The position numbers and the translations under genes are program-made. The notes below the pieces were generated by a model. That model worked only from the letters and a program-made list of their open reading frames with translations, was not told the origin of the DNA and ran no database searches. This document shows positions 22,469 to 57,746 of a DNA stretch of 64,000 nt, in pieces (positions within the stretch are counted from its first letter, which is position 1; every line of letters begins with the position of its first letter). Source of the DNA: an uncultured Bacteroidales bacterium (GTDB taxonomy: Bacteria > Bacteroidota > Bacteroidia > Bacteroidales > UBA932); assembly GCA_944323345.1 (NCBI GenBank), contig CALUSC010000004.1, positions 1 to 64,000 on the forward strand, given 5' to 3'.

Positions 22469-23332
22469 CTATTCCCGGCTGAAAATCAGTACGCAGCTTA
22501 TGGCCGAAACTATACCGATGATCTGAGGTACGGTAGGTATATGGGCATACAGCACGAGTGATATGATAGTCGTGATGACCGGAGCTACGGCATCGGCCAA
22601 AGGAGCGACTATCATCGCTTTTCCGTACCTGTTCGCATAGACCAAGGCGAATGCGCCTATCGCATTCAGTATCTGTACTATGAATGTCAGATAAGGGCCG
22701 TTGAACGACCAGTTTACCGGCTGTGAGAAGTCTGTCATGGCGAGAGCTACGGGAATCAGTACCACCGCCGAGATGGCCATGTATACGAAAACGCTTTCGG
22801 CATCGGGCGTGTGATTGTTCGCCAGTTTCATTACGAATGCCTGGGTTCCCCAGCATACAAACACGAGAGACGCCAGAATCAGCCACAGGTATCCGTGTGC
22901 GGAATTGTCCGTACTGTTTGAAAGAGAGAAACTTACCAGAGCCACGAAAGCGAGGGCGATACCCACGGCGCCCAGCTTGCTTACCCTTTCCTTCAGAAAT
23001 ACCGTAGAAAGTATCACAGTGACGATAGGGGCTACTGAAATCATCGGGAAAATCAGATATGCCGGGCCGTATTTCAGAGCTTCGAACAGTATCAGCTGCC
23101 CTGCAGCGCCGAGCAGTCCGACCCCCATGCTCAATGCAGCCGATTTCGGTTTTACGTCCAGTTTGAACCGGATGTTCGCCAGTGCCGCGAGGGCGCACGG
23201 TATCATGCTTATAGCCCATACTACGTATGTCAATGTGGCCGGATAGTCCGGCACTTCTGAAAATGCTCCCCATATACCCCATGTCACCATGGTTATGAGG
23301 GCGTAAGCCAGCCAGTTGTGTTTTCTTGCCAT
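22469..23332 (-). CDS. EamA/DMT superfamily permease
   Basis: 287 aa, about ten membrane segments in two EamA repeats (about residues 8-135 and 148-285). The repeat hallmark is seen in VTVILSTVFLKERVSKLGAVGIALAF near the middle and AVAPVITTIISLVLYAHIPTVPQIIGIVSAI at the end. DMT proteins move small metabolites, including sugars and amino acids. It follows the DeoR regulator with a 17-bp gap on the same strand, so it should be controlled together with the PUL. That makes it the best local candidate for the inner-membrane permease of the released sugar, a role inferred from position. Confidence 0.85.
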   Translation of the reverse strand: MARKHNWLAYALITMVTWGIWGAFSEVPDYPATLTYVVWAISMIPCALAALANIRFKLDVKPKSAALSMGVGLLGAAGQLILFEALKYGPAYLIFPMISVAPIVTVILSTVFLKERVSKLGAVGIALAFVALVSFSLSNSTDNSAHGYLWLILASLVFVCWGTQAFVMKLANNHTPDAESVFVYMAISAVVLIPVALAMTDFSQPVNWSFNGPYLTFIVQILNAIGAFALVYANRYGKAMIVAPLADAVAPVITTIISLVLYAHIPTVPQIIGIVSAISCVLIFSRE

Positions 23333-23349
23333 GTTATTGTCTGTTTATA

Positions 23350-24135
23350 CTATATGTCTACAATGTGCAGTTTTATGCCGGCAGTCCGTATGTAGTCCTT
23401 CATGTCTTCCGGGATACCGCTGTCCGTGACTATCGTGCCTATCTTTTCGAGAGAGGCGATGTGTGCGAAACTCCTTCTTCCGAACTTGCTGGAATCGAAT
23501 ACGGCTATCGTTTCTTTCGCCGACGCTATCATGGTCTGGTTCAGGTTGGCTTCCTCGATATTAGGTGTGGACAGTCCGTCCTTTATGCTCGCGCTGTCGA
23601 CTCCCAGAAACAGCTTGTCGCAATAAAAATTCTTCAGGTCCGAAGTGGCGAGCATCCCTACCGTGGAATTCGAAACCGACCTCATGTTCCCTCCCAGGAC
23701 GATGATGTCGAATCGCTCATATCTGCTCAGTATGATGGCGATGTCCAGAGCGTTGGTGATGATGGTCAGTTTTCTGAACTTGTCCAGATTCTTGGCCACT
23801 TCCATCATGGTAGTGCCAGAATCGATTATGATGGTGTCGTTTTCTTCTATAAGTGAGGCCGCGAGCCTGCCTAAAGCCTGTTTTTCCTTTACTTTCAGAA
23901 GTTTCTTATGATGTACCGGAACATCATCGATATCCTCCGTCTGGCGCATGATGATGGCCCCTCCCTTTACCCTGACCAGCAGCTGCTGCTCTTCGAGAAC
24001 CGCAAGATCCTTTCTGATAGATACTTCTGATACACAGAACGTTTCTACAAGGTCTCTGATGAATACCTTGTTCTCGTCATGCAGCCTTTTAAGGATCATG
24101 CTCCTGCGCTCATCTGTGCTGTACTTCTTTCCCAT
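23350..24135 (-). CDS. DeoR/GlpR family transcriptional regulator (PUL regulator 1)
   Basis: 261 aa. An N-terminal DeoR helix-turn-helix (about residues 6-60, FCVSEVSIRKDLAVLEE) is followed by the sugar-phosphate-binding DeoRC domain with IIIDSGTTMMEVAKNL and KLFLGVDSASIKDGLSTP. It is a close paralog of the regulator at 40977-41759 (shared EEANLNQTMI and RRSFAHI blocks). It is divergent from the GH36-headed block and co-directional with the DMT permease. By analogy with AgaR, GlpR and FruR it should repress until a phosphorylated sugar intermediate binds. The 239-bp divergent region has several TTTCGAAA-type sites. Confidence 0.93.
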   Translation of the reverse strand: MGKKYSTDERRSMILKRLHDENKVFIRDLVETFCVSEVSIRKDLAVLEEQQLLVRVKGGAIIMRQTEDIDDVPVHHKKLLKVKEKQALGRLAASLIEENDTIIIDSGTTMMEVAKNLDKFRKLTIITNALDIAIILSRYERFDIIVLGGNMRSVSNSTVGMLATSDLKNFYCDKLFLGVDSASIKDGLSTPNIEEANLNQTMIASAKETIAVFDSSKFGRRSFAHIASLEKIGTIVTDSGIPEDMKDYIRTAGIKLHIVDI

Positions 24136-24146
24136 AATGTCATTTG

Positions 24147-24314: not shown

Positions 24315-24338
24315 ATTAAGTTTGATATTTTATTTTTG
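24309..24338 (+). promoter_or_regulatory. Promoter of PUL block A
   Basis: TTG at 24309-24311, a 19-nt spacer and TATTTTTG at 24331-24338 match the consensus closely. The GH36 start codon is 36 bp downstream. A TTTTGAAA operator-like site covers the -33 box, which suggests repression by direct occlusion. Confidence 0.7.
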
Positions 24339-24374
24339 TTACGAAAACACAGGAAACACTAATTCTATATAACG

Positions 24375-26444
24375 ATGGGCAACATTAAAAAAAGTATTCT
24401 TTACGGTGCTTTGTCTACCGTAATCATCTCAGCATGTTCTTATTCAGGGCCGGTAAAGTCAGGTGATCTCCTGATAGAGGTCGGTGATGACATGCATGTA
24501 ACCCTGGTTTCAGGCGTGGCGGACGAGCCGATCGTGGAAGCCGGCTCGGCTTTCAGCGACCTGATTATAGACGGCGCGGATCTTCAGTACGTGAAGACAG
24601 GAAGTCGTAAGTCTTCTGTAAATGACAAATTCGGAAAGGGTACATTATATACTATAGAAGGTGAAGCTGTTTCCGGAGATATCCGGATATTGAAGGAAAT
24701 GCAGTTCGCCGCTTATGATGCATTTCCTTCATTTTTGGTTTCGAAAGTGACATATACCAATCTTTCCGACCGTCCCGTGCCGGTCAAAGGTTGGATATCC
24801 GAGGATTTTGATGTATTGCCCGGTGATTATGAGCCGGGCCTGTGGTCATTCCAGGGCCAGTCGACTGCGGAAAGGGCCGACTGGCTTATTCCTATCGGGG
24901 ACGGCGATTTCTATCAGAAGAATTTCATGGGTATGAACAATACCGATTACGGCGGAGGCGTGCCTGTCCTGGTGCTGTGGAGAAAGGATTCGGGTATCAT
25001 AACCGGGCACATAGAACCGACTCCGGAACTCGTATCCCTGCCTGTCAGCAAAGAAAAGGGAGGTGCGGCGTCTATCTCCGTGTTGAAGGAATTTGACACC
25101 CCTGTTTCTCTGGAACCGTCGGGAAAGATGGAAACATACACTACGTTTACCGGAGTTTTTACCGGTGACTGCTTCTCTCCTGTCAGGACTTATGCCGGAC
25201 TGCTTGCCAAAGTGGGTGTCGTAATGCCGGAGAGCGAACCGAGAGCTTTCGAGCCTGCATGGTGCGCATGGGGTTATGCCAGAAAATTCACCATCGACGA
25301 GATAGTCGGTACCCTTCCGAAAGTAAAGGAACTCGGCTTCAAGTGGGCTACTCTCGATGACGGATATCAGATCGCCGAGGGTGACTGGGATCTTACGAAA
25401 GAGAGGTTTCCTCGCGGGGATGAAGACATGAAATACATGGTGGACAAATTCCATGAGTACGGACTGAAGGCTGAACTCTGGTGGGCTCCGCTGGCTGCCG
25501 ATCCGGGTACCGAATTCCTTAAGAAGTATCCGGATGCCCTGATTCTCGACCCTGACGGCGAGCCTGAATATATCACATGGTGGGACAGCTGGTATCTTTC
25601 TCCGCTGGACACCAATGTACGCCGCGAGACTGCAAACCTGGTGAAGAAATTCCTTGTAGATTACGGTTTCGACGGGCTGAAACTCGACGGACAGCATATG
25701 AATGCCTGTGCGCCTGACTATAATCCTGCACACAGTCCCGATGATCCTGAGAAGGCTTCGAGGGAGCTTCCGGGTTTCTTCAAGCTGATTTTCGATACTG
25801 CCAGAAGCGTAAAGCCGGATGCGGTGATACAGTATTGCCCGTGCGGCGACTGCTTCTCGGTGTACAATCTTCCGTATACGAACAAGACTGTCTCTTCAGA
25901 TCCTGAAAGCAGCTGGCAGATTCGCCACAAGGGCTATATCCTCCGTGCCATCGCTCCTAAGACAGCATATTACGGGGACCATATAGAGCTCTCCGACGGC
26001 CGTGACGACTGGCCTACCCAGCTGGGAATCGGGTCTGTCATCGGGACCAAGTTCACATGGCCTGAGGACAATCCTTATGTCAAGGGTCCGGAGAAGTGTC
26101 TCCTGACTCCTGAGAAGGAAGAAGTCATGAAGAACGCCATAAAGATATACAATGAAAAGATGCTGTCTCTCGGCGAATATGTGCCTGGTCTGTACGACAT
26201 AGGATTCGACTATCCTGAGACTCATGCCATCGCCAAGGACGGGAACATGTATTACGCATTCTATGCCAAGGAGGCCCCTGTATCGAAAGTGGAGCTCCGT
26301 GGCCTGGAACCTGGGAAATCATACAAGCTAACAGACTATTATAACCATATCGATCTCGGCACCGTCACACCGGACGGTACGGCGGTCACTCTTGACGTGC
26401 CAGTGGAAAAAGCTCTCCTGGTAGAGGCTGTCCCTGTAGAGTAG
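24375..26444 (+). CDS. GH36-like alpha-galactosidase-family lipoprotein
   Basis: 689 aa. A lipoprotein-type signal ends ISAC. After a ~280-residue beta-sandwich domain, the catalytic TIM barrel begins at FEPAWCAWGYARKFT and carries the clan GH-D blocks ATLDDGYQ, LKAELWWAP, GFDGLKLDGQ and VSSDPESSW. By comparison with GH36 enzymes the nucleophile would be Asp438 in KLDGQ and the acid/base Asp509 in SSDPES. A C-terminal beta domain closes the protein. The family removes alpha-galactose or, in some members, alpha-GalNAc or alpha-galactosamine; KLDGQ resembles the raffinose-synthase-like subgroup more than classic KWD. It heads PUL block A and is followed 34 bp later by SusC. Lipid anchoring points to the periplasm or cell surface. 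Confidence 0.85.
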   Translation: MGNIKKSILYGALSTVIISACSYSGPVKSGDLLIEVGDDMHVTLVSGVADEPIVEAGSAFSDLIIDGADLQYVKTGSRKSSVNDKFGKGTLYTIEGEAVSGDIRILKEMQFAAYDAFPSFLVSKVTYTNLSDRPVPVKGWISEDFDVLPGDYEPGLWSFQGQSTAERADWLIPIGDGDFYQKNFMGMNNTDYGGGVPVLVLWRKDSGIITGHIEPTPELVSLPVSKEKGGAASISVLKEFDTPVSLEPSGKMETYTTFTGVFTGDCFSPVRTYAGLLAKVGVVMPESEPRAFEPAWCAWGYARKFTIDEIVGTLPKVKELGFKWATLDDGYQIAEGDWDLTKERFPRGDEDMKYMVDKFHEYGLKAELWWAPLAADPGTEFLKKYPDALILDPDGEPEYITWWDSWYLSPLDTNVRRETANLVKKFLVDYGFDGLKLDGQHMNACAPDYNPAHSPDDPEKASRELPGFFKLIFDTARSVKPDAVIQYCPCGDCFSVYNLPYTNKTVSSDPESSWQIRHKGYILRAIAPKTAYYGDHIELSDGRDDWPTQLGIGSVIGTKFTWPEDNPYVKGPEKCLLTPEKEEVMKNAIKIYNEKMLSLGEYVPGLYDIGFDYPETHAIAKDGNMYYAFYAKEAPVSKVELRGLEPGKSYKLTDYYNHIDLGTVTPDGTAVTLDVPVEKALLVEAVPVE

Positions 26445-26478: not shown

Positions 26479-29409
26479 ATGAAGAAGTATTTACTGCTTT
26501 TCTTTTTGATGTCCATCCCTTTTGTCCTGGATGCACAGGTACAGGTGAAGGGAGTCGTGACAGCAAGTGACAATGGCCAGACACTGGTCGGAGTCAGCGT
26601 TATGGAGCAAGGAACGCTGAATGGCGTGGTGACGGATCTCGACGGAAACTATTCCATTGAGGTCAAGAACGCGGATGCAGTCCTTGTCTTTTCCAGTATC
26701 GGTTACAAGACGACTGAAATTACAGTCGGCACCCGGAATGTGATAGACCTGTCAATGGATGTCGACCAGCAGCTGCTGGATGAAGTCGTAGTCATGGGTT
26801 ACAGCTCAAAGACCAGAGGCGAAATCACCAGTGCCGTGACCACAGTCTCTGCAGACAAACTAAAGGATGTCGTAAGTAACAATATCGGAGATATGCTTCA
26901 GGGTAAGGTCGCCGGTGTATCTGTCATAAAAAGCAGCGGCCAGCCGGGTTCGGAGCCTTCGATACGAATCAGGGGAACGTCTTCCATGAATGCCCCGCAG
27001 GAGCCTTTGTATGTGGTCGACGGTATCATCGGAGGTGCTTATGATCCTGATGACGTAGAAAGCATTACCGTCCTGAAGGATGCAGGTTCCACAGGTATGT
27101 ACGGTGCACAGGCGAACGGCGGAGTCATCGTGATTACCACAAAGAGGGCAAAAACCAATGAGACTACCTTTAATTTCAAGGCCAGCATTGGTGTCGCCAC
27201 TCCGGATTTCTCAAGAAACCACAAAATGGACACTCCGCAGCTGTATGCATATTACCGTGAATATTTCCGTGATCCGGAAACCCTTCTCATCGATGACCTT
27301 GCATTCAAGTCTGCCCTGCCGTCATCCATCCTGGATACGAATACTGACTGGAGGGACCTGATTTTCAGGAACGCGCTCGTCCAGAACTATCATTTCTCCG
27401 TATCGGGACGCTCGGAAAAGAATTCGTATTACGCCAGCGTTTCATACTATGACGAACAAGGTACTCTGGAGAAAACGGGTTACAGAAGGATAAACGTCCG
27501 TTCGAACAATACTTACAAGCTGACCAAATGGCTGAACCTGACCAGCAATATCAATATCAACGGACACATGGCCGATACTCCTGACGTGCTGCTGGTCTAT
27601 TACAATGATGTCAATATTCCTTTCGATTCCCCTTATGATGCCGACGGCAATTTCAGACCGTTCAAGTCTTCTACAATATGGGGACAGTATGACGTCAATC
27701 CGATGATCGGTTATTACAGCGACAATCTCGTGAGCAACAACAAAGGCTTCGGCGTCGATTATGACTTTGTCCTGGACATAAGCCTGACTCCTTGGCTCTC
27801 TTTCGTTTCTCAGAACAGGGCTTCTTTAAGTTCGTATGCATCTCACTATCACAGATTCGCGGATGTGGAATACATGTATGCAGGCGACAGTCTCGAAGAG
27901 TCGCAGGAGATATCCTACGGCGGCATTTCCACGAATATGTTCAAGGCCGACCATAAATGGAAGAAGAACTCTATCAGCGGTCTCCTCGGATATGAGGCCC
28001 AGATGTCATGAACTGAAGATGTGTTCGGATCCGGGCAGGGCCTTCCTTACGGACTCGCGGTTCTCAACGTGGTTTCATCCAACAAGCAGGTGTCGGGAAC
28101 CAAGCTCCAGACAGGAATGCAGTCATTCATCGCCCAGGCGAACTACAATTATGACAACCGTTATTTCCTGACAGGCTCCTTCCGTATCGACCAGTCTTCG
28201 ACTTTCAATGCCGACAACAGGACTGCTTATTTTCCGAGCCTTTCCGCCGCCTGGATGATCAGCAACGAAAAGTTCTTCAATGCAGACGCGATTACAAATC
28301 TCAAGCTTAAGGCCAGCTGGGGTATCACCGGTATGAAAGATATCGGATCGTCAAAATACCTCGAAGCATTCGCTTACAGTACCCAGTACAATGGCAATAC
28401 ATCGGCAGTCCCGGTGCAGATGGCGAACCCTGACCTGAAATGGGAACAGACCACACAGTTCAATGCCGGAGTGGAAATCGGATTCCTCGACAGAGTGAAC
28501 CTGGATTTGAACTACTACCGCAATACTACCAATAACCTTCTGGTAAACAGAGACCTTCCACCTTCAGGCGGTTTCGCTACACAGTGGCAGAATCTCGGTT
28601 CCGTACTCAATACGGGTTTTGAGGCTGCGATTAATGTCACACCTGTGGCGACGAAAGATTTCAGATGGGATGTGGATTTCTCGATTTCATACAATTACAA
28701 CGAACTGTTCAATTTCGGAAAAGATGTCGAAATCATCAAATCCAACTATGAAAGCGTATCGCAGATATACCGCGACGGCGTTCCTCTCTATACATGGTAT
28801 CTGAAAGACTATGCGGGAATCGATCCTCAGACGGGAAGAATGCAGTTCCGCGATGAAAACGGCGAGCTGACTTATGATTATTCTTCAGCAAGATTCGTCG
28901 AGGCCGGAACACCGCTTATCCCATGGCAGGGCGGTATTTCCACATATCTGACTTACAAGAACTTCAAGCTGAGTGCCACAGGTAGCTTCGTATGGGGTAA
29001 CTGGCTGTACGGAAGAAGGCGCGCGAGCGACCTCAGTACATTCATCAGCAACTCTCTTGAACCGTCGAATGAAGACAAGATATGGCGTCAGCCTGGTGAT
29101 GAGGCTACTATCGGTCTGCCTTATTATGCTCCGGCCAATATCTATCACACCGGCTCGCTTGTCAGGGGTGATTATTTCAAGCTTAGAAATGTGACCCTGT
29201 CCTATACTCTTCCAAAGAGTGTCATGAAAGACAAGAGCCTTACATTCTCACTGTCTTGCGACAATGTATTCACCGCCACTACAGTATGGGGCGCCGATCC
29301 TGAGACCGGCATGGATGCGAGCGAAGGCATTGCAGGTGAGATCCAGGGGCTGGATTACAGATATCCGAACAAGAGGACTTATATGTTCCAAGTCAATTTC
29401 ACATTCTAA
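26479..29409 (+). pseudogene. SusC/RagA TonB-linked transporter interrupted by one in-frame TGA
   Basis: The first part (26479-28008, 510 codons) holds the signal peptide, carboxypeptidase-regulatory-like domain, TonB-box region (LDEVVVMGYSS), plug (LYVVDGIIGG) and the first barrel strands. A TGA at 28009-28011 follows GLLGYEAQMS, and the same frame continues to 29409 with a complete barrel ending FQVNFTF. Total length would be ~976 aa, normal for SusC. Alignment with the SusC at 46659 is uninterrupted across the stop, so this is one nonsense change with no other decay. Options are a recent null mutation, a sequencing or assembly error, or rare readthrough. TGA is used as an ordinary stop elsewhere (for example 38423-38425), so a changed code is unlikely. 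If real, SusD next door has no full partner unless the second pair substitutes. Confidence 0.85.
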
Positions 29410-30976: not shown

Positions 30977-31858
30977 ATGAAAACAATATACAAGACAGTT
31001 TCCATATTGGCCATGGTTCTCTTCGCCCTGACATCCTGTGTCCACAAGGGTGATCTGGATATAGAACCGGTGCCTGATATCGCTTTCGACTATACAAGCA
31101 AGGGCCTGACGCTGACTTTCACGTCACAGGTCGAAGGAACGACCGATATATCCTGGAATATAATAGGCCAGGACGGCGCGACCGGTACGGGCGAGACGTT
31201 TACTTACACATTCCCTAAACCTGGCAACTATTGGGTCCAGATGACGGGTACATACGGAGGCAGGGAACAGGTATTTTCAGGAAAGATACTTGTCGCCAAA
31301 CCTTCTGTCGTGAAAATGGATGACGACTCGTTCACAGACTGGGACAATGTAAATTATGCGGACTTCATGCTTGTCGCTACCGCTGCCGAAGGAGGCGCGA
31401 ATGTAGGTTCCGGCAAGATAGACTATGATGCCAATTATATTTATTTCTATCTCGATGTGGCTACTACGCTTCCTAAGGCTACGGCCGATCAGATGATCCT
31501 GACCATGAGCATAGATGCTGACAATGATGCAGCTACAGGTCTGGCAAACGGAAGCATGGGCGTAGAGTGGCTGCTGGAAGGTAACTTCTGGTCCGGCGGC
31601 TGGGCCAGCTGGTATGACAGCTCTTCCGGAGAAAATGTCGAAGACCCTGCAAAGGCGGAGTCTTATGTCCAGGGAACATATCTGGCGGAAAATGACAGGA
31701 TGCAGCTGGAATTTGCCATGTCAAGAAAAGACTTCGACATGACAGGTTCGTCGATTACCATGTCCATGAAATTCTATAATGAAGACTGGAGTAACGCCAT
31801 TATGATTTCATGCGACGGCAAGGAAGCTTTCCCGGTAGCAATGGATAAAACCGAATAA
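30977..31858 (+). CDS. PKD-like/DOMON-like surface lipoprotein (SusE/F position)
   Basis: 293 aa. The signal peptide ends LTSC and the mature start has several acidic residues. Residues ~35-110 look like a PKD/Ig-like fold (FTYTFPKPGNYWVQMTGTY), and residues ~115-290 resemble a DOMON/CBM9-type sugar-binding sandwich (DDDSFTDWDNV, then IYFYLDVAT and MSIDADNDAATG). It follows SusD by 16 bp, in the place of SusE/SusF glycan-binding proteins. A similar lipoprotein is in the same place after the second SusCD pair (51462-52235). Carbohydrate binding is inferred; I recognise the folds only at motif level. Confidence 0.7.
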   Translation: MKTIYKTVSILAMVLFALTSCVHKGDLDIEPVPDIAFDYTSKGLTLTFTSQVEGTTDISWNIIGQDGATGTGETFTYTFPKPGNYWVQMTGTYGGREQVFSGKILVAKPSVVKMDDDSFTDWDNVNYADFMLVATAAEGGANVGSGKIDYDANYIYFYLDVATTLPKATADQMILTMSIDADNDAATGLANGSMGVEWLLEGNFWSGGWASWYDSSSGENVEDPAKAESYVQGTYLAENDRMQLEFAMSRKDFDMTGSSITMSMKFYNEDWSNAIMISCDGKEAFPVAMDKTE

Positions 31859-41955: not shown

Positions 41956-41984
41956 TAAACATTAAAAACCAAAACCGAACAGAT

Positions 41985-49658: not shown

Positions 49659-51434
49659 ATGAAAAATATATTGATATTCATAGCAGCGGCTTTGGCCGCA
49701 GTATCATGTTCATTGGACTATTTCCCGTCCGATGCCATGAGTTCCTCCCAGATAAAACAGGATCCGGGGAGTGCGGTGTATGCTACCGACGGCAACTATT
49801 CGATGTTCAAGGACAATCTCGACTATAACGGCACGGTGATGTCGGGAAACTCATACATGAGGCATTATTTCCTGATGACCGAGCTCAGGGGCGACAATGT
49901 CTGCCTTTCGGGACGAACCGAGGACCCTCTCTACCAGGCATTGTGCTACAATGACGACTCGAACCTCTATAACCTGACTTACATGTGGTATATCGCATAT
50001 AAGATCATCTACGGGGCCAATACCATGATAGAATCGATTCCTGAAGGCGATCCGGAAAACGATCACCTTAAAGGCGAGAACTATTTCCTGAGAGCGCTGT
50101 GTCATCTGGACCTCTGTACGATGTTCGCACAGCCGTATGCCCTGGGCAGGGATAATCCGGGTGTAGTGCTCAGGAAGTCTACTGACTGCTCTGTCACCGA
50201 GCGTGCTACCGTAGGTGCAGTATATGACCAGATAGTGGCGGACCTCAAGGAAGCCATCCGTCTTATGGGCAACGGCACCAAGAGAGGAAACAACGGCTAT
50301 GCAAGCAAGGAAGCCGCGCAGGGCCTCCTTACCAGGGTCTATCTCCACATGGGTATGGACCAGGAATGTATAAATCTGGTGGACGAAATGCTGGCCGGAG
50401 CTACTCCTGAGAGCAAGCTGGACCCTGACTATGCAAATCTTTTCGCCAATTCCCTGACCTCTTCAGAGGTCCTGTGGTGCATCGGATGCATCGCCAACGA
50501 TGTTACCGAGCAGAGGTCGCTTCTCGGTTCGATGTATTACAGCCCCGACTCTCCGGGGTCTACCGGATGGGGAGAAATGTACTGGAGCCAGCCTATAATG
50601 GACCTGTTCGGAAGATATCCCGAGGATGTGCGTTTTTCTACCATGGCTGTGCCGTATAACTCCCAGGCCGGAAACATGATATACTGGCCAGTGCCGAGTA
50701 CCGGCGAGGATTCCAATGCGGCTACTTCAGCCCCGGAATTCATCTGTTATTCGAACAATCTGGATCTGTCTCCGACAGGAAGCGAGGCTACAGGCTGGAC
50801 AGCGACATATACTTATGAAGATCCGAACTCCGCCGACCCGGGCAATCCTGATGTAATCGAGGAAGAACTTCCCGTATATACCGAAAAATACAACGGCAGC
50901 GGAAAGACCGACCCGGCCGGAGAGTACACCAGGCATTATGTGATGATAGACGGGGTCAAGACTTACGCTACAGTTTCGCAGAAGTACGGAAACCGCCAGA
51001 CTTACCCGACCATGTTCATGAAGAAGTTCTCAGGCAATGACGCCACATATCCTCTGCTCTGTTCTCCTATCAGAATCAGATGGGCCGAGGTCATCCTGAA
51101 CAGGGCCGAAGCCAATGCCCATCTGGGCAATGACGATGCTGCCCTGAACGACGTGAATGTCATCAGGCGCAGGGCACAGCTTCCTGACAATGCCATGTTC
51201 TCGAAAGGAAACATGCACGGGTACGAGAGCGTACTGGATGTAGTTCTCGACGAGAGGCGTCTCGAACTTTGCTTCGAGGGCTTCAGGGCCACGGACCTGT
51301 TCCGTAACGGCAAGACCATGGACCGCCGCTTCGCAGGTGTCCAGCCGTGGGAAGAAGTCGCTCCAGGCGATTCGCGCTTCCCGTTCAGGATCCCGTTCGA
51401 TGAAATTTCTGTAAGCGGAATACCTAATAACTGA
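49659..51434 (+). CDS. RagB/SusD family lipoprotein of PUL block C
   Basis: 591 aa. The signal ends AVSC with SLDYFPSDAMSSS after it. The SusD blocks GENYFLRALCHLDLCTMF, AAQGLLTRVYLHMGM, LNRAEANAHLGNDDA and the C-terminal ERRLELCFEGFRATDLFR are all present. An insertion at about residues 370-430 (Pro/Asp-rich, with YTYEDPNSADPGNPD) makes it longer than the other two SusD proteins here. It lies 9 bp after SusC. It should form the lid of that transporter. Confidence 0.95.
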   Translation: MKNILIFIAAALAAVSCSLDYFPSDAMSSSQIKQDPGSAVYATDGNYSMFKDNLDYNGTVMSGNSYMRHYFLMTELRGDNVCLSGRTEDPLYQALCYNDDSNLYNLTYMWYIAYKIIYGANTMIESIPEGDPENDHLKGENYFLRALCHLDLCTMFAQPYALGRDNPGVVLRKSTDCSVTERATVGAVYDQIVADLKEAIRLMGNGTKRGNNGYASKEAAQGLLTRVYLHMGMDQECINLVDEMLAGATPESKLDPDYANLFANSLTSSEVLWCIGCIANDVTEQRSLLGSMYYSPDSPGSTGWGEMYWSQPIMDLFGRYPEDVRFSTMAVPYNSQAGNMIYWPVPSTGEDSNAATSAPEFICYSNNLDLSPTGSEATGWTATYTYEDPNSADPGNPDVIEEELPVYTEKYNGSGKTDPAGEYTRHYVMIDGVKTYATVSQKYGNRQTYPTMFMKKFSGNDATYPLLCSPIRIRWAEVILNRAEANAHLGNDDAALNDVNVIRRRAQLPDNAMFSKGNMHGYESVLDVVLDERRLELCFEGFRATDLFRNGKTMDRRFAGVQPWEEVAPGDSRFPFRIPFDEISVSGIPNN

Positions 51435-51461: not shown

Positions 51462-52235
51462 ATGAAAAAAGTTTTGAAATTCACGGCAGCTGCCATCATG
51501 GCAGTATGTGCACTCTCCTGCACTAAAGACAACGGAGATGACAACAAGGTAAACAACGGAAAAGACGATGAACAGGAGCAGCCTGGCGGAGATGAAACTC
51601 CTGCAGCGGCCATCACTATCGACGGCACATTCTCGGACTGGGATGCAGTCGAGACTGTGGATGCCACTGCTCCTGCCGGAGTGATCCAGGACGGTATCTC
51701 GAAGGTAAGGGTATACGGTGACGACATGTATCTTTACATGTACCTCGAAATGCCTCTCGACGGTTTCACATACGACGGCGCTGACGGATATGTTCCTCTC
51801 AGCATCTGTATAGACACTGACGGCAATCCTGATACCGGAGCCACTATCGACTGGATGTGGATGCCTGCCGCTTTCGAGGCTATCCTCCAGGGCAACATAG
51901 CAGGACCGAACAGTGAGTTCGTATCCTTCAACCCAGGCGTGACAGTATGGACCGGAGAAGACGGCATGGGCTACTGGGATGACGAATCAGCTCATTCTCA
52001 GCTCGTGGCAGAGGGCTCAGGTGTCGGAGCAGGTGCAGGTGTCGCTGACGGCGATATCGTCAAGTACGAGCTTTCCATCATCAAGGAATTCATCCCTGAA
52101 ATGGGCAGCACCATCAAACTCGGAGTTTACCTTTCAGACAAGTCCTGGGGTGAAACAGGACGTCTCCCTATCGGAGAACATGACAGTGAGGCTGGGTCGG
52201 ACACTATAGTAGAAATGCTGACTTACAACTTCTAA
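51462..52235 (+). CDS. DOMON/CBM9-like surface lipoprotein
   Basis: 257 aa. After LSC and an acidic linker (DNGDDNKVNNGKDDEQEQ) that resembles a surface-export signal, the domain starts with ITIDGTFSDWDAVE, a typical opening of DOMON/CBM9-like sugar-binding sandwiches, with MYLYMYLEMPLDG and SICIDTDGNPDTGA following. It sits directly after SusC/SusD, where glycan-binding accessory proteins are found, and is related in motif order to the C-terminal domain of 30977-31858. A strong terminator begins 21 bp after the stop. Confidence 0.75.
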   Translation: MKKVLKFTAAAIMAVCALSCTKDNGDDNKVNNGKDDEQEQPGGDETPAAAITIDGTFSDWDAVETVDATAPAGVIQDGISKVRVYGDDMYLYMYLEMPLDGFTYDGADGYVPLSICIDTDGNPDTGATIDWMWMPAAFEAILQGNIAGPNSEFVSFNPGVTVWTGEDGMGYWDDESAHSQLVAEGSGVGAGAGVADGDIVKYELSIIKEFIPEMGSTIKLGVYLSDKSWGETGRLPIGEHDSEAGSDTIVEMLTYNF

Positions 52236-52256: not shown

Positions 52257-52296
52257 GGTTGTCCGTGAGGTTCTGACCGAGCGGGCAACCTTTTTT
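52257..52296 (+). terminator. Rho-independent terminator after PUL block C
   Basis: GGTTGTCCG pairs with CGGGCAACC (one G-U pair) around a 16-nt loop, followed by six T. It ends the second SusCD operon 26 bp before the next start codon at 52322. Confidence 0.88.
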
Positions 52297-52321
52297 GATT
52301 CAAAATCTCGATTTGCCGGTT

Positions 52322-53731
52322 ATGCCGAGAATTTTAGCCTTTGCATTCTTTTTTTCTATCCTCCTGTCCTGCTCGCAGAGACAGGACAATGACATTGACG
52401 GTCAGAAGACCGGTCATGATGTGACTTTTACCGAGTCCGACGAGGACTTCTGCAATCCTGAAAGGGGTTATTACCAGCAGCATACGTTGTGGTTCAGGGA
52501 CGGACAGCTGCCTTCCCCTCCTTCGTCCAAGGCTCTTGAGCTGGGAAGGACGCAGAACCGCACGCTTACCCTGATGCTGTTTTATCTGACTGATTTTATG
52601 GATGGTGATATAAGCGAAGAGGCCCTGGACATTGTCAGACAGAGTCTGCAGGCACACAGGGATGCCGGAGTCAAGGCTGTCCTGCGGTTTGCATACAAGG
52701 ACGGTTACACCGAGGAAGACAAGCCGTGGGATGCTCCCGTGGATGTGGTGCTGCGTCATGTCGGGCAGCTGAAGCCTGTTTTCAATGAATATAAGGATGT
52801 GATTTATGTCCTGCAGGCCGGATTCGTGGGCGCGTGGGGTGAGTGGTATTATACTTCGCATTTCAATATGGACCTGGAGACGGATGCAGACTGGGAGCCT
52901 CGCCGGCAGCTGATACGCGCACTTCTGGATGCCATGCCGCAGGACCGTCAGGTAGCTCTCCGTACTCCGGGGTACAAGATGAAATTCTTCGGGACGGAGA
53001 CAGCCGATTCCATTACCGCAGCGACTGCATACGGGACTTCGGACATTGCCCGCCTGGCCGGGCATAATGACTGTTTCATTTCCAGTTCGAATGACGTGGG
53101 TACGTATTCGAAGGGCGTGGAACGGGAACTTTGGCGCGCAGATACCAGATATGCCATAATGGGAGGCGAGACCTGTGCGGCAGAGGAGCATTACTGTAAT
53201 TGCGACAAGGCTTTCGAGGCTCTCGGAGAATATCACTGGTCATACCTGAACAGCGGCTATCACACCGGTGTGTTCGCAGTCTGGAAACAGGGCGGGTGCT
53301 ATGATGAGATAGCGCGCAGGCTCGGCTACAGGCTCGTCCTGGATTATGCGGATTTCTCAGGCAGTTTCTCTTCCGGGAAGGATTTCCATCTGGATATAGG
53401 ACTCAGGAATGTCGGTTTTGCGTCTCTGATGAATCCGCGTCCCGTGGAGTTCGTCATAGTCAGGAAGTCCGATCCGGCTGAAAAATATACTGTAGGGAAT
53501 GATACTGATCCGCGTACCTGGAAAGCCGGGACATCATGCACTTTGTCTGCCGATATCATTCTTCCTGCCGGCCTCGAACCGGGTGCCGAGTATCTGTTGT
53601 GCCTGAATCTTCCGGATGGCTCGGAGAATCTGAAAGACAATCCTGCATTCAGCGTGCGTTTCGCAAATGAAGGGGTATGGGACGAATCTGCAGGTTATAA
53701 TATTATCGGAACTTTTACTGCTGAACCATAA
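52322..53731 (+). CDS. DUF4874/DUF4832-like lipoprotein (copy 2)
   Basis: 469 aa from the Met at 52322; a start nine codons earlier would overlap the terminator. The signal ends LLSC. Family blocks are FCNPERGYY, YLTDFMDGDISEEALD, VKAVLRFAYKDGY, LQAGFVGAWGEWYYT, GHNDCFISSSNDVGTY, IMGGETCAAEEHYCNC and the beta domain LGYRLVLDYADF. The extra cysteines in HYCNC are shared with the next gene but not with copy 1. It is a tandem paralog of 53743-55215, 11 bp away. The role is unknown; a glycoside hydrolase-like TIM barrel acting at the cell envelope is the best guess. Confidence 0.8.
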   Translation: MPRILAFAFFFSILLSCSQRQDNDIDGQKTGHDVTFTESDEDFCNPERGYYQQHTLWFRDGQLPSPPSSKALELGRTQNRTLTLMLFYLTDFMDGDISEEALDIVRQSLQAHRDAGVKAVLRFAYKDGYTEEDKPWDAPVDVVLRHVGQLKPVFNEYKDVIYVLQAGFVGAWGEWYYTSHFNMDLETDADWEPRRQLIRALLDAMPQDRQVALRTPGYKMKFFGTETADSITAATAYGTSDIARLAGHNDCFISSSNDVGTYSKGVERELWRADTRYAIMGGETCAAEEHYCNCDKAFEALGEYHWSYLNSGYHTGVFAVWKQGGCYDEIARRLGYRLVLDYADFSGSFSSGKDFHLDIGLRNVGFASLMNPRPVEFVIVRKSDPAEKYTVGNDTDPRTWKAGTSCTLSADIILPAGLEPGAEYLLCLNLPDGSENLKDNPAFSVRFANEGVWDESAGYNIIGTFTAEP

Positions 53732-53742
53732 ATATCGAAATC

Positions 53743-55215
53743 ATGAAAACAAGGAATATATTTGCATTTATCGTTTGTGCGGCTTTTTCTGTCGCCGCAA
53801 TGTCCTGCTCTGACAATGCCGGTGACCTTACCGGTCAGACTGATACTCCTGAGAACCCTGATACCGGAACCCCTGATGTTCCGGAACCTGAGGAGACATT
53901 CGATGTGACATATGAGGAAAGCATGGAGGATTTTGCGAATCCCGAAAGAGGCTTCTACAAATACACAGAGGTCGGCTTCAGGGGCGGCTCAGTCCATAAT
54001 CCTATCTCCGTGTCTTCGCTTTCCGCTTACCGGGAAACGGGGAAGACCCTGATTTATCAGTACAACTATCTTACAGACTTCATGGATGGCGATATAAGCG
54101 AAGAAGCGCTCGATGTCATCCGCCAGAACATGCAGGCTCTCAGGGATGCAGGCATGAAGGTCGTCCTGAGATTCGCCTACAAGGACGGTTATGCGGAATC
54201 GGACAAACCGTGGGATCCGCCGGTAGATATCGTGCTCCGGCACGTGGAGCAGCTTAAACCGGTTTTTGAAGAGTATTATGATGTGATTTATGTGCTTCAG
54301 GCAGGTTTTGTAGGGTCATGGGGAGAATGGTATTATACTGATCACTTCGGATTCGAGCCCAAGACTGTCGAGGATTTCAAGCCACGCCGTCAGCTGCTCG
54401 ATGCGTTGCTCGATGCACTTCCTGAGGAAAGGCAGATAGCAGTGCGTTATCCTGAAGCCAAGTTCATGTGCATGGAGACGGAAATCGAGGATACCATTAC
54501 TGCCCGGACGGCATTCAACGGTTCCGATCTGTCCAGAATAGCCGGGCACAACGACTGCTTCGTATCCAGCTCCAATGATGTGGGAACATACAAGAAAAGC
54601 CGTGACAAACAACTGTGGCGCGCCGAGACGAATTATGTCTCCATGGGCGGGGAGACTTGCGATGCCCCGGAACATTATTGCAACTGCGATGCTACATTCG
54701 AGAATCTGGAAGAGTTCCACTGGTCATATCTCAACAGTGACTACAACACTGCCACTCATGCCGTATGGAAAGAAGGCGGCTGTTTCGAAGAGATTTCACG
54801 CAGGCTCGGTTACAGGATCGTGCTGATAGGCGCCAATTACGGCGACAGTTTCGCCGCAGGCAAGGATTTCTCCATCGATATCAAGCTCAAGAATGCAGGA
54901 TTTGCTTCCATGATCAATCCGCGCGACCTGGAGTTCATAGTGGCGTCTGCGTCCGATCCTCAGGAGAAGTACGTGATCGCCACGGATTTCGACCCGCGCG
55001 TATGGAAAGGGGGAAAGGAATACAGGTACCAGACTTCCATAACCCTGCCTTCGGAGCTTGAAGCCGGGGAAGAGTACCGTCTGTACATGAATCTTCCTGA
55101 CCCGACAGAGACTTTGCATGACAATCCTCTTTTCAGTATCCGTCTTGCCAATGAAAATGTATGGGATGGGGCTACCGGCTATAACCTTCTCGGAACTTTT
55201 ACCGCTGTCCGTTAG
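53743..55215 (+). CDS. DUF4874/DUF4832-like lipoprotein (copy 3)
   Basis: 490 aa. The signal ends MSC, followed by an Asp/Pro/Thr-rich linker of about 35 residues that would hold the domain away from the membrane. The domain carries FANPERGFYKYTE, YLTDFMDGDISEEALDVI, LRFAYKDGY, LQAGFVGSWGEWYYTDHFG, GHNDCFVSSSNDVGTY and MGGETCDAPEHYCNC, then LGYRIVLIGANY in the beta domain. It is closest to the preceding gene, so a tandem duplication is evident. The N-terminal linker distinguishes it. The next gene appears to start inside its 3' end. Confidence 0.8.
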   Translation: MKTRNIFAFIVCAAFSVAAMSCSDNAGDLTGQTDTPENPDTGTPDVPEPEETFDVTYEESMEDFANPERGFYKYTEVGFRGGSVHNPISVSSLSAYRETGKTLIYQYNYLTDFMDGDISEEALDVIRQNMQALRDAGMKVVLRFAYKDGYAESDKPWDPPVDIVLRHVEQLKPVFEEYYDVIYVLQAGFVGSWGEWYYTDHFGFEPKTVEDFKPRRQLLDALLDALPEERQIAVRYPEAKFMCMETEIEDTITARTAFNGSDLSRIAGHNDCFVSSSNDVGTYKKSRDKQLWRAETNYVSMGGETCDAPEHYCNCDATFENLEEFHWSYLNSDYNTATHAVWKEGGCFEEISRRLGYRIVLIGANYGDSFAAGKDFSIDIKLKNAGFASMINPRDLEFIVASASDPQEKYVIATDFDPRVWKGGKEYRYQTSITLPSELEAGEEYRLYMNLPDPTETLHDNPLFSIRLANENVWDGATGYNLLGTFTAVR

Positions 55216-56068
55216 CCGTGGTGTTTGTTATCTGGTCGTTTCCCTGCTCCTGCTTTCGTGTTCGGGCAAGGAAATACCGGATTTCCATAAGGTCCCGGCT
55301 TCGGAGTGCATGACCGGCTCTCCGGAAGAATGGCCTGATGCCGGGAGGTACGCTATCAGGGAAAGGCAGTTCGGCAGATTCGCGGAAAGACTGGCGGGGA
55401 TGCCGCCGGAAGATGCTGCAGCGGCGATTTCGGCGGTTTATGATGTGGCCGACAGCATTTCCGTGGAATATGATGACGTATGGACACTGGAGAATCTGTC
55501 AGGAATGTTCGCCGGCAGTTTTTTCATGTCGGATTCTCCTTTGTATGACGAAGATATCTATCTGGCCGTACTGGAGAAGGAAATTTCCTGCAGGGCTTTT
55601 TCCGGAAAAGAGAGACTGAGGGCTGAGTGGCTGCGTAATCTCTTGTCGGCCAATCGAGTCGGTTCGGAAGTCGCAGATATGGCCCTGCTCTCCGAAAACG
55701 GACAGCCCATTACCCTTCATGCCGTACTCGCGGGGAAAAGGACTCTGATTTATATTTACGGGTCTTCATGCAGCCTTTGCCGTAAACTGACATCGGAACT
55801 GAGGTCATCCGTACCTGTGCGTGATTCCGTCCGGGACGGCAGACTTCAGGTCATTTCCATTTTTGCAGGGGACGATATGGATGTGTTCGGCTCCATGTCG
55901 AGACCTCTGCGCGATATTGCGGAAAACTATATTGACGCCGATTCGTCCATAGCGTTCAGAAATGTTTTCGATGCCAGGCTGGTACCCTCGCTTTATCTCG
56001 TTTCGGACGATGGGAAGGTCGAAATTAAAGCGGCGGAAAATATTGGCATGATTGAAAAAATTCTGTAA
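55166..56068 (+). CDS. Thioredoxin-fold lipoprotein (DUF5106-like)
   Basis: 300 aa from the chosen start; Met codons further upstream to 55118 also exist. Every usable ATG lies inside the previous gene, because the lipoprotein signal (VVSLLLLSC) begins almost at that gene's stop. Residues ~60-180 form a helical region like DUF5106, and the C-terminal ~120 residues look like a thioredoxin/TlpA fold: RTLIYIYGSSCSLCRKLTSELR with a CSLC active site, and RLVPSLYLVSDDGKV containing the cis-Pro loop. It may reduce disulfides in the cysteine-rich neighbouring proteins (HYCNC motif), a guess from proximity. Confidence 0.7.
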   Translation: MGLPAITFSELLPLSVSRGVCYLVVSLLLLSCSGKEIPDFHKVPASECMTGSPEEWPDAGRYAIRERQFGRFAERLAGMPPEDAAAAISAVYDVADSISVEYDDVWTLENLSGMFAGSFFMSDSPLYDEDIYLAVLEKEISCRAFSGKERLRAEWLRNLLSANRVGSEVADMALLSENGQPITLHAVLAGKRTLIYIYGSSCSLCRKLTSELRSSVPVRDSVRDGRLQVISIFAGDDMDVFGSMSRPLRDIAENYIDADSSIAFRNVFDARLVPSLYLVSDDGKVEIKAAENIGMIEKIL

Positions 56069-56123
56069 TTTTATCATTCCGGCTTTTCCGCCGGGAATTT
56101 GATTGATAAATAACATAAATTCG

Positions 56124-57746
56124 ATGAAAAACAGGTTTTTATTGCCGGCGATAGCCGCGATGCTGTCTGCAATGGCAGTGTCTGCACAGGAGAACGACAC
56201 TTTGATCGTAAAGCTCAATCCTGGAGAAAAGGTCTGGGGAGGGCGTGTGGCTGACGGTTCGAAGATGCCGTATGCCCCCGGATTCGTAGGGGATATGTTC
56301 TACAACGGAAATAACCAGATCCAGCCTCTGTTGCTGACTGACCAGGGCCGCTATGTTTGGAGCGAGGAACCTTATGTGTTCGGAATAGCCGAAGCCAGGA
56401 TAATCATTGTCCCTCAGAATGAAGGGACGGATCTGGACCTTAAGACAGGTGTGGCGGGAGAGACTCTGGCAGATGCGCACAGGTATGCTTCCTCGGAATT
56501 TTTCCCTGCGACAGGAGTGATGCCTCCTGAGGAATTCCTGAAGGTCCCTCAGTACAACACTTGGATCGAACTGATGTATGACCAGAACCAGAAAGGAATC
56601 CTGGAATATGCGCATGCCATCATAGATAACGGACTGCCTGCCGGTATCCTCATGATAGATGATACGTGGCAGGAAGATTACGGCAAATGGGTCTTTCATC
56701 CGGGGCGTTTCCCTGATCCGAAAGCCATGATAGACGAGCTGCATTCTCTCGGCTTCAAGGTCATGGTCTGGGTCTGCCCGCTGGTGAGCATGGACCAGTA
56801 TCTGATATGTCAGGAAATCATGAAAGACAAGGGATTCCTGCTCAAGGCACCGGAACCCGGCGCTTCATGGGATGAATGTACCGAGCCTTATCCCGTGACA
56901 TGGTGGAATGGGGTTTCGGCTGTTCTCGACCTTTCGAACAAGTCCGCTGTCAGGTGGTTCAAGTCCCAGCTCGACAGGCTGATGGATGATTACGGAGTGG
57001 ACGGATTCAAGTTCGATGCGGGTGACCCTATCCATTACCCGGCCGATGCTGTCAGCAAAGGCGGCGTGACTTCACAGGACCAGTGCATGCTGTATGCTGC
57101 GGTCGGTCTGGATTATCCGTACAACGAGTACCGTTCCGGATGGAAGATGGGAGGGCAGCCTCTCGTCCAGCGGCTCGGCGACAAGAATCATTCATGGGAT
57201 GACCTCAGGAAACTTATTCCCGACATGATAGCGGAGAATCTTCTCGGATACCTTTATGCGTGTCCTGACATGGTGGGCGGAGGCCAGTTCGCCGCTTTCC
57301 TCGACCCTGACAGGATGGATACCGATCTGGTCGTGCGTTCCGCACAATGCCATGCCATGATGCCGATGATGCAGTTCTCCGTGGCTCCGTGGAGGGTGTT
57401 GGACAGTGCCCGTTTCGATGCCGTGAAGAAAGCCGTGGCCCTGCGTCAGGAAAAAGTGGCTCCCCTGGTCATGGAGCTTGCCAGACAGGCAGCAGAGACA
57501 GGAGAGCCGATAATACGTTCTCTGGAGTATGAATTCCCTCACTGTGGATATTCCGGTATCAGGGATCAGTTCATGCTCGGTGATTCATTCATGGTAGCTC
57601 CGATGCTTTCGCCTGGGGAGGGTACCCGCGAAGTGGTGCTTCCGAAAGGGAAATGGCGCGGAGACGACGGTAAAGTCTACAAAGGCGGGAAAACTGTCAC
57701 GATAGAAGTTCCTATGGACAGAATCCCGTACTTTGAAAAACTGTAG
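56124..57746 (+). CDS. GH31 family alpha-glycosidase
   Basis: 540 aa from Met at 56124, with a Sec signal peptide ending VSAQ. A short N-terminal beta-sandwich is followed by the catalytic barrel: GILMIDDTWQEDYG, KVMVWVCPLVS, YGVDGFKFDAGD (nucleophile Asp298), YRSGWKMGGQ, GDKNHSWDDL (acid/base Asp353 of GD) and the C-terminal EFPH..IRDQFMLGDSFMVAPM. GH31 includes alpha-glucosidases, alpha-xylosidases, alpha-galactosidases, sulfoquinovosidases and alpha-GalNAcases, and specificity cannot be set by eye. Given the aga-like genes, alpha-galactosidase or alpha-GalNAcase is the favoured guess. It ends the PUL and converges on the nitroreductase gene with one base between stops. Confidence 0.9.
   Translation: MKNRFLLPAIAAMLSAMAVSAQENDTLIVKLNPGEKVWGGRVADGSKMPYAPGFVGDMFYNGNNQIQPLLLTDQGRYVWSEEPYVFGIAEARIIIVPQNEGTDLDLKTGVAGETLADAHRYASSEFFPATGVMPPEEFLKVPQYNTWIELMYDQNQKGILEYAHAIIDNGLPAGILMIDDTWQEDYGKWVFHPGRFPDPKAMIDELHSLGFKVMVWVCPLVSMDQYLICQEIMKDKGFLLKAPEPGASWDECTEPYPVTWWNGVSAVLDLSNKSAVRWFKSQLDRLMDDYGVDGFKFDAGDPIHYPADAVSKGGVTSQDQCMLYAAVGLDYPYNEYRSGWKMGGQPLVQRLGDKNHSWDDLRKLIPDMIAENLLGYLYACPDMVGGGQFAAFLDPDRMDTDLVVRSAQCHAMMPMMQFSVAPWRVLDSARFDAVKKAVALRQEKVAPLVMELARQAAETGEPIIRSLEYEFPHCGYSGIRDQFMLGDSFMVAPMLSPGEGTREVVLPKGKWRGDDGKVYKGGKTVTIEVPMDRIPYFEKL

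Follow-up and report, generated by a model that had tools for sequence, protein, structure and literature searches.

The stretch of DNA analysed here (the window; positions 1 to 64000, 64,000 nucleotides in all) lies on contig CALUSC010000004.1 of an uncultured, gut-type Bacteroidales bacterium, a metagenome-assembled genome (MAG) of 2.12 Mb that is 88% complete. Between positions 22469 and 57746 it contains a polysaccharide utilisation locus (PUL) of the Sus type, in which adjacent SusC and SusD homologues are accompanied by glycan-active enzymes. Thirty window proteins, including 25 of the cluster, were scanned against Pfam, which identified two SusC/SusD pairs alongside GH36, GH31 and DUF4832 proteins, and 10 proteins were scanned against NCBIfam. 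The original prediction for this region had named a set of enzymes for alpha-linked galactosamine sugars, and indeed all of these genes were present with Pfam family matches, the NodB-like protein scoring just under its cut-off. The genes of the cluster are as follows (GalNAc, N-acetylgalactosamine; ORF, open reading frame).

22469..23332, minus strand: EamA/DMT permease, candidate galactosamine importer (PF00892, 94.1 bits)
23350..24135, minus strand: DeoR-family regulator 1 (PF00455/PF08220)
24375..26444, plus strand: GH36 lipoprotein of the FpGalNase type, candidate exo-alpha-galactosaminidase (PF02065, 29.5 bits, cut-off 27)
26479..29409, plus strand: SusC 1, split (ORFs 26479-28011 and 28021-29409; Pfam)
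29425..30960, plus strand: SusD 1 (PF07980, PF14322)
30977..31858, plus strand: PKD-domain lipoprotein, candidate surface glycan-binding protein (PF00801, lipobox)
31870..32967, plus strand: Amidohydro_2 lipoprotein a, AH2a (PF04909, 73.4 bits)
32979..34541, plus strand: Xa, putative distant relative of the DUF4832 TIM barrels (no Pfam match; profile comparison)
34552..36111, plus strand: Xb, paralogue of Xa (part of the 3' region near-identical to Xa in DNA)
36125..38425, plus strand: NodB/CE4-like exported protein of 766 aa, candidate poly-GalNAc deacetylase (PF01522, 21.9 bits, cut-off 23.1)
38422..39834, plus strand: DUF4874-DUF4832 protein a, candidate Pel-type hydrolase (PF16116, 226.1 bits)
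39834..40964, plus strand: alkaline phosphatase (PF00245, 197.2 bits)
40977..41759, minus strand: DeoR-family regulator 2 (PF00455/PF08220; the listed ORF, 40977-42245, is over-long and the start was estimated from the helix-turn-helix domain)
41985..43115, plus strand: AgaS-like SIS deaminase/isomerase (closest PDB entry 3odp, 1.5e-77)
43108..44349, plus strand: GatZ/KbaZ-like protein, candidate tagatose-6-phosphate 4-epimerase (PF08013, 119.8 bits, cut-off 26.7)
44346..45311, plus strand: PfkB kinase of the ribokinase/IolC type, candidate galactosamine 6-kinase (163.2 bits)
45348..46517, plus strand: Amidohydro_2 lipoprotein b, AH2b (PF04909, 76.1 bits)
46659..49649, plus strand: SusC 2, intact (Pfam)
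49659..51434, plus strand: SusD 2 (Pfam)
51462..52235, plus strand: lipoprotein, candidate surface glycan-binding protein (no Pfam match; lipobox, then TKDNGDD)
52295..53731, plus strand: DUF4874-DUF4832 lipoprotein b (PF16116, 190 bits)
53743..55215, plus strand: DUF4874-DUF4832 protein c, with a lipobox seen only by eye (PF16116, 197.2 bits)
55118..56068, plus strand: AhpC/TSA-like protein (PF00578, 21.1 bits against a cut-off of 26; the start of the listed ORF is probably too early)
56103..57746, plus strand: GH31 alpha-galactosidase-type enzyme (Pfam, 105.7 bits; closest PDB entries 8j53 and 8j50)

The three DUF4874-DUF4832 proteins, the two Amidohydro_2 (AH2) lipoproteins, the two DeoR regulators, the Pfam-less proteins Xa and Xb, and an in-frame TGA at position 28009 were additional to what had been predicted. 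The TGA splits SusC 1, a relative of which is a single 976-aa ORF (locus L007), and may reflect decay, polymorphism or an assembly error; SusC 2 is whole. Export was predicted with a crude script that looked for a lipobox or for marked hydrophobicity at the N-terminus, not with SignalP. Signals were found in the GH36, AH2, SusD, surface glycan-binding, DUF4832, GH31, NodB-like and phosphatase proteins, and no leader in AgaS or PfkB. The lipobox pattern missed SusD 1 and DUF4832 protein c, in both of which a lipobox is visible by eye, and it fired at residue 33 of the GatZ-like protein, though this has no leader. These results agreed with the expected division, in which GH36, GH31, the NodB-like protein and the phosphatase are exported while the AgaS-, GatZ/KbaZ- and PfkB-like enzymes stay in the cytoplasm. 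Among the 25 cluster proteins scanned, no gene for a phosphotransferase system (PTS), a glycosyltransferase or polymer export was found.

We propose, with moderate confidence, that this PUL targets an exopolysaccharide rich in alpha-1,4-galactosamine, of the Pel or galactosaminogalactan type, and contains a route from galactosamine (GalN) to fructose-6-phosphate. What is directly shown is which genes are present, their homology, the residues and neighbourhoods that are conserved, and their co-occurrence; from these we infer every enzyme activity, the cell compartments and the identity of the polymer. In biofilms of bacteria and moulds, Pel and galactosaminogalactan serve as matrix polymers. 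Pel has been described as alpha-1,4-GalNAc that has lost part of its N-acetyl groups and is for the most part a repeat of GalNAc and GalN (PMC12345266). Relatives were sought in two collections. The GatZ-like query was run against one genome per species (84,980 species), and the best 80 of 105 relatives were taken; locus content was determined by tblastn at E 1e-10, with flanks limited to 10 kb and often cut short by the end of the contig, so that the counts are minima. The second collection consisted of 295 Bacteroidales genomes, with thresholds of E 1e-50 for GatZ, 1e-40 for GH36, 1e-30 for AgaS and the Pfam cut-off for DUF4832. Loci and genomes are designated by L and G numbers, respectively.

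The sugar that would be released is suggested by the GH36 lipoprotein. In a sequence comparison with the PDB its closest solved relative was FpGalNase (9awt; E 1.8e-54, 188 bits), together with the mutant 9ayu. A further chain, 8x1b (5.5e-54), bears the title alpha-galactosidase, but its alignment is nearly identical to that of FpGalNase and it appears to be the same protein; alpha-galactosidase 6lcj, of the next family, followed at 1.6e-15. In FpGalNase, residues W317, D346, D347, W387, K461 and D463 are common with alpha-galactosidases and Y464, C513 and D532 are specific, while the D463A, C513A and D532A variants are nearly inactive (PMC11762096). When these positions were mapped through the PDB alignment (chain numbering offset 26), the window GH36 retained all of them except Y464, and hence the catalytic D463 and the specificity residues C513 and D532 by which we define the FpGalNase type. 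In an alignment of the window protein with 26 of 29 homologous ORFs (three ORFs under 500 aa were dropped), D328, D329, K436, D438, C490 and D509 were invariant in all 27 rows (26 distinct); C490 corresponds to C513 and D509 to D532. The assignment of this GH36 to the FpGalNase type, as a candidate for the release of alpha-linked GalN, is thereby strengthened. The original prediction had envisaged a Bacteroidales analogue, built from different parts, of the Firmicute pair that acts on the blood-group A antigen, FpGalNAcDeAc and FpGalNase of Flavonifractor plautii. As the GH36 is of the same type, with the catalytic and most specificity residues kept, this element of the claim had to be dropped. 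What sets the window apart from the F. plautii pair is the Sus-type PUL, the DUF4832 hydrolases and the dedicated GalN pathway, along with AH2 lipoproteins that adjoin GH36 in relatives. The PDB matches listed for the eight cluster proteins compared did not include FpGalNAcDeAc.

The second exo-enzyme, GH31, was closest to the GH31 alpha-galactosidases 8j53 (2.3e-162) and 8j50 (7.9e-162), which may prefer alpha-1,4-galactobiose; if so, it would fit galactosaminogalactan with its alpha-1,4-linked galactose. That polymer is composed of alpha-1,4 galactose plus alpha-1,4 GalNAc (PMC3213105). A sulfoquinovose substrate, considered because of the combination of GH31, PfkB and DeoR, was rejected, since GH31 scored 545 bits to alpha-galactosidases versus 52 to YihQ.

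The type of polymer is indicated by the DUF4832 proteins, all of which scored above the PF16116 cut-off of 29.2 bits. A DUF4832 protein of Streptococcus intermedius, SIR_1591, has been reported as an active Pel hydrolase (mBio 2025, PMC12345266); it consists of a TIM barrel and a beta domain and disrupts Pel aggregates comparably to PelAH. The pel loci of streptococci and clostridia contain DUF4832 genes, and Gram-positives with pel-like loci include streptococci, clostridia and bifidobacteria (PMC7112168). Because of its DUF4832 proteins, we consider that the cluster points to a polymer of the Pel or galactosaminogalactan type rather than to A-antigen or mucin. A model of DUF4832 protein c built with 26 sequences (predicted local distance difference test, pLDDT, 89.6; predicted template modelling score 0.86) was a TIM barrel, and its best solved Foldseek matches were beta-amylases (E 2.5e-8, TM ∼0.33), followed by GH5-type enzymes (50 best of 1745). 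Beta-amylases are common to these matches and to the fold neighbours reported for SIR_1591, namely beta-amylases and beta-galactosidases (PMC12345266). Residues E195 and E304 were invariant in 26 rows and constitute a candidate catalytic pair. No credible solved sequence relative of DUF4832 was found in the PDB, and no structure named GH114, GH135, GH166 or GH191 was among the best 50 of the 1745 Foldseek matches of the protein c model. These four families comprise alpha-galactosaminidases for the same polymer class. A plasmid search for Gram-positive DUF4832 proteins gave five records (Nonomuraea, Prevotella, Spirosoma, Bacteroides and Phocaeicola), and no pel genes were seen around two of the five, one of them unannotated. 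A fusion protein in locus L095 (7154-9424) joins DUF4874-DUF4832 to CBM9 and a tail for type IX secretion.

Xa matched the DUF4832 alignment with a probability of 99.2 (E 2.9e-19) when the L098 rows were included, and profile comparison of Xa/Xb using close rows without L098 gave no significant match; solely via these distant rows, Xa and Xb would belong to the DUF4832 superfamily. Separately, a stretch about 60-360 bases from the 3' ends of Xa and Xb is 95-100% identical in DNA, versus 62-78% in neighbouring blocks, which suggests recent gene conversion.

Since FpGalNase-type enzymes need free GalN, deacetylation is required. The NodB/CE4-like protein, predicted to be the core deacetylase, did not hold this position: it stays below its Pfam cut-off and none of the other 294 order genomes has a relative of it at E 1e-20, and it was therefore rejected as a conserved core deacetylase. 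It also had no solved relative in the PDB at E up to 1. By eye it contains HTMNH (HxxxH), later WHDYG, and a DGD stretch, and its single-sequence model reached a pLDDT of 34.5. With its 766 aa it could match a PelADA-like layout, which in PelADA is alpha/beta/alpha, esterase, beta-sandwich (PMC13254593); Agd3 is the founder of family CE18 (PMC7229062). The other candidates are the AH2 lipoproteins, homologues of which adjoin GH36 in L090, L092, L093, L097 and L106. In an alignment of 18 of the 26 available AH2 proteins, both window AH2s included, H64, H66, H196, H255 and D310 were kept in all 18 rows and are likely metal residues; no solved relative was found in the PDB, either by single sequence or by profile. 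That the AH2 lipoproteins are the deacetylases is a guess, and one we would sooner doubt than trust.

Inside the cell, the AgaS-like, GatZ/KbaZ-like and PfkB proteins are encoded by consecutive genes. Solved AgaS-family chains were by far the closest to the first of these (3odp), which we call AgaS-like because it nevertheless falls under the TIGR02815 cut-off. Fructoselysine was rejected as an alternative substrate for the SIS and PfkB pair, as the best model for the SIS protein was AgaS and FrlB was not among the six models listed. E. coli GatZ and KbaZ, long termed aldolase chaperones, convert fructose-6-phosphate to tagatose-6-phosphate as C4-epimerases, and the modelled metal and base residues of E. 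coli GatZ are C20, D87, H88, E171 and H257 (PMC11907403). The equivalents C33, D99, H100, E189 and H260 were invariant in all 89 rows of the GatZ-like clade (86 distinct, none dropped); this clade is probably catalytic but distinct. No KbaY/GatY-type aldolase was found in the 88%-complete source genome, where the sole PF01116 protein is a 333-aa fructose-bisphosphate aldolase-like protein, 33% identical to the KbaY-like query. In view of the epimerase activity of GatZ/KbaZ and this missing partner, the window GatZ need not be an aldolase subunit. The predicted KbaZ-type step keeps its role in sugar phosphate conversion, with its proposed nature changed to that of a candidate epimerase.

The PfkB kinase scored far better to the ribokinase and IolC models of NCBIfam than to those of LacC and 1-phosphofructokinase. 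Among the 15 order genomes with AgaS, 11 had this GatZ clade and three (G131, G199 and G212) a LacC/1-phosphofructokinase-type kinase instead; in the remaining one, G228, GatZ is divergent (26% identity) and the AgaS match contains a stop. The G199 kinase scored 206.6 bits against TIGR03168, and the other two LacC-type kinases were 48% and 42% identical to it. From these three LacC cases, which are few, LacC and GatZ look like alternative routes of tagatose-6-phosphate disposal. Among loci L001-L107 the LacC query matched only L091 at a threshold of E 1e-8. The ribokinase-type PfkB was kept in two of the three LacC loci (L091 and L115), and since it persists beside LacC-type kinases, it would do another job, most simply the phosphorylation of GalN. 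Further candidates for the kinase are four ROK proteins that score over cut-off and are encoded elsewhere in the genome. For the NagA family, nothing in the genome scored over cut-off (there were two weak sub-cut-off matches), so that entry as GalN, not GalNAc, fits. Homologues of the EamA permease share a locus with AgaS, often adjoining GH36, PfkB or AgaS (L011, L018, L071, L082, L090, L091, L103, L105 and L115).

The 80 GatZ loci came from Bacteroidota MAGs, many of them from ruminant and other guts, and from Barnesiella sp. An55. They contained AgaS in 68 cases, PfkB in 66, GH36 in 22, SusC in 20, AH2 in 17, DUF4832 in 14 and a KbaY-like aldolase in 12, and the lipoprotein at 51462..52235 had homologues in eight of them, adjoining SusD. 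All 22 GH36-bearing loci carried AgaS and PfkB, and 18 carried DeoR genes. As for the regulatory region of the window, three TTTYGAAAG boxes at 24136-24374, between DeoR1 and GH36, are possible operator sites. The motif, picked after looking, occurs five times in the window versus 1.3 expected, and five were reached in one of 100 shuffles; as a DeoR operator it is suggestive only.

In the 295 order genomes we found GatZ in 11, GH36 in 11, AgaS in 15 and DUF4832 in 21 (12 at >=100 bits, a line picked after seeing the list). GH36 occurred with AgaS in 9 of 11 genomes (Fisher 6e-12; these values ignore shared ancestry), or in 8 of 10 with the source genome left out (1e-10). DUF4832 at >=100 bits occurred with AgaS in 7/12 (1e-7; 6/11 and 1e-6 without the source genome) and with GH36 in 6/12 (5e-7; 5/11 and 6e-6); at the curated cut-off the corresponding figures were 9/21 (2.8e-8) and 8/21 (2.3e-8). 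DUF4832, GH36 and AgaS lay on one contig within ∼20 kb in G109, G199, G217, G167 and the window; the G109 locus, L090, also has GatZ, PfkB, the aldolase, AH2 and SusC. G008, of the same genus, lacked GatZ, GH36 and AgaS at the set thresholds, and the cluster therefore looks accessory. With an FpGalNase-type GH36 and AgaS in 9 of the 11 GH36 genomes, the predicted route via alpha-linked galactosamine, permease uptake and conversion by AgaS, PfkB and a KbaZ-type enzyme gained support.

Our proposal would then run as follows. Exported DUF4874-DUF4832 hydrolases would cut the polymer, and the two SusCD pairs, one with its SusC broken in the assembly, would import the fragments. In the periplasm, the AH2 lipoproteins and possibly also the NodB-like protein, as candidates, would remove N-acetyl groups, the FpGalNase-type GH36 would release GalN, and GH31 would remove alpha-galactose. 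GalN would be carried across the inner membrane by the EamA permease, phosphorylated to GalN-6-phosphate by PfkB, deaminated and isomerised to tagatose-6-phosphate by AgaS, and the product epimerised to fructose-6-phosphate by the GatZ-like enzyme. A more far-reaching version we hold tentatively, with slightly more doubt than belief: that this is a dedicated Bacteroidales PUL harvesting the cationic poly-alpha-1,4-galactosamine of Gram-positive (Pel) or fungal (galactosaminogalactan) biofilms, in which DUF4832 is a new glycosidase family, amidohydrolase-superfamily lipoproteins are the deacetylases, and a PTS-free, one-kinase route leads from GalN via GalN-6-phosphate and tagatose-6-phosphate to fructose-6-phosphate, without tagatose-6-phosphate kinase or tagatose-bisphosphate aldolase.

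Several observations weigh against the proposal. The link from the window DUF4832 proteins to SIR_1591 is by Pfam family name only, and the activity of SIR_1591 itself was shown through loss of aggregation, its deletion having no phenotype (PMC12345266). The S. intermedius polymer is GalNAc-rich and resists the galactosaminidase Ega3 (PMC12345266); on such a polymer a GalN-specific GH36 would need a deacetylase, for which there are only candidates here. The residue equivalent to Y464 of FpGalNase is Gly in 26 of the 27 GH36 rows and Ala in one. The AgaS-like protein reached 343.7 bits against TIGR02815 (cut-off 529.2), the best NCBIfam equivalog of the GatZ-like protein 91.7 bits (cut-off 568.8), and E44 and K279 of E. 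coli GatZ are replaced by A57 and N280 in all 89 clade rows. Of the 12 genomes with a strong DUF4832 match, five were without AgaS and six without GH36. AgaS and PfkB were also present in 42 of the 58 GatZ loci without GH36 (41 of these 42 lacked SusC as well); the AgaS/GatZ/PfkB pathway is therefore more widespread than the PUL and not tied to the polymer alone. Finally, the alkaline phosphatase has no explanation in this scheme; the S. intermedius pel locus includes CotH-like and polyphosphate-polymerase genes (PMC12345266), so that the polymer may be phosphate-linked.

The same polymer could also be processed by a tagatose-1,6-bisphosphate route, with PfkB as tagatose-6-phosphate kinase and GatZ as an aldolase or aldolase subunit. 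The classical aga pathway is a precedent (PMC12118421), and a KbaY-like class II aldolase (PF01116, 284 bits) follows PfkB in 9 of 18 loci, plus L115 and L118. It was present in 7 of the 8 GH36 loci of the 18-locus set, which counts against the epimerase route, as that route does not need an aldolase. Among the 80 GatZ loci, however, only 4 of the 22 with GH36 had it, it lay within 10 kb in only 2 of 43 AgaS-bearing loci with full flanks, and none was found near AgaS in the window genome or in G240. Together with the lack of such an aldolase in the source genome and a ribokinase/IolC-like PfkB that is kept beside LacC-type kinases, this makes the bisphosphate route somewhat unlikely. Four Rikenellaceae/Alistipes-type loci (L066, L067, L076 and L078) had GatZ without AgaS in reach and a KbaY-like aldolase ∼5-6 kb away.

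Another bacterial glycan with alpha-linked GalN or GalNAc, such as an O-antigen, a capsule or teichoic acid, would accommodate the alkaline phosphatase if it were phosphorylated. The abundance of AgaS and PfkB in loci without GH36, some of them beside secreted proteins, implies several substrates. Phosphatase homologues were rare (2 of 80 loci, L006 and L071), though, and DUF4832 and GH36 strongly co-occurred, so that we judge a glycan of this kind unlikely. In L010, L013 and L031, AgaS, GatZ, an unnamed gene and PfkB lie in this order beside large secreted proteins, beta-helix-like by eye, and no GH36 or SusC was seen; the pathway may serve other substrates there. In L116 and L117, AgaS operons with LacC or a divergent GatZ adjoin a protein that by eye resembles a GH20 hexosaminidase, perhaps a beta-GalNAc variant.

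Host mucin or the blood-group A antigen, whose alpha-GalNAc ends would be deacetylated and then cut by GH36 as in Flavonifractor, is quite unlikely. The GH36 type is right for it and many relatives come from MAGs of gut, rumen or faeces, but no GH20, GH33, GH95 or sulfatase was found among the 25 scanned cluster proteins, and the three DUF4832 proteins and their two relatives have no evident mucin role. B. thetaiotaomicron, moreover, uses a GalNAc 1-kinase in its mucin PUL (PMC11992087). As to the predicted substrate, the galactosamine sugar was thus retained, while A-antigen and mucin became less likely in favour of the polymer type to which DUF4832 points. A cluster for plain alpha-galactosides or other sugars, with incidental amino-sugar genes, is very improbable given that GH36 and AgaS occur together in 9 of 11 GH36 genomes, even though GH31 is closest to alpha-galactosidases and, to our knowledge, galactosaminidases are a minority among GH36 and GH31 enzymes.

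Compared with known systems, the cluster shares AgaS-like and GatZ/KbaZ-like proteins, a PfkB-family kinase and DeoR regulators with the aga/gam pathway for GalNAc and GalN in Proteobacteria and Firmicutes. It differs in having no PTS among the 25 proteins, no KbaY partner and no NagA over cut-off, in its ribokinase-type PfkB and in its coupling to a PUL. The GalNAc/mucin PUL BT4240-50 of B. thetaiotaomicron is likewise a Bacteroidales PUL feeding a kinase for galactosamine or its N-acetyl form; BT4240, however, is an APH-type GalNAc 1-kinase accompanied by mucin enzymes, and the main text of PMC11992087 mentions neither AgaS nor tagatose. With the pel loci (SIR_1591, PelADA) and the Aspergillus galactosaminogalactan cluster it has the DUF4832 TIM barrel and a NodB-like protein with HxxxH in common, but those loci make polymer, whereas the window has SusCD, exo-enzymes and catabolic genes. 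A literature search, in which subscription journals were mostly absent, revealed, among the papers listed, no organism shown to feed on Pel or galactosaminogalactan, no PUL for it, and no earlier report of an AgaS-type galactosamine breakdown pathway in Bacteroidales. The nearest precedent was a metaproteome table naming, for bioreactor bins, GH135 enzymes directed at galactosaminogalactan (PMC11653725), and a 2017 survey of human gut genomes reported the AgaS pathway from no phyla other than Actinobacteria, Firmicutes and Proteobacteria (PMC5583593). Each part is of a kind already known; what is new is their combination and the likely polymer. If our proposal is right, the cluster would represent an enzyme set directed against biofilm matrix, would suggest a function for the PF16116/PF16173 proteins, and would add a galactosamine catabolic route to the Bacteroidota.

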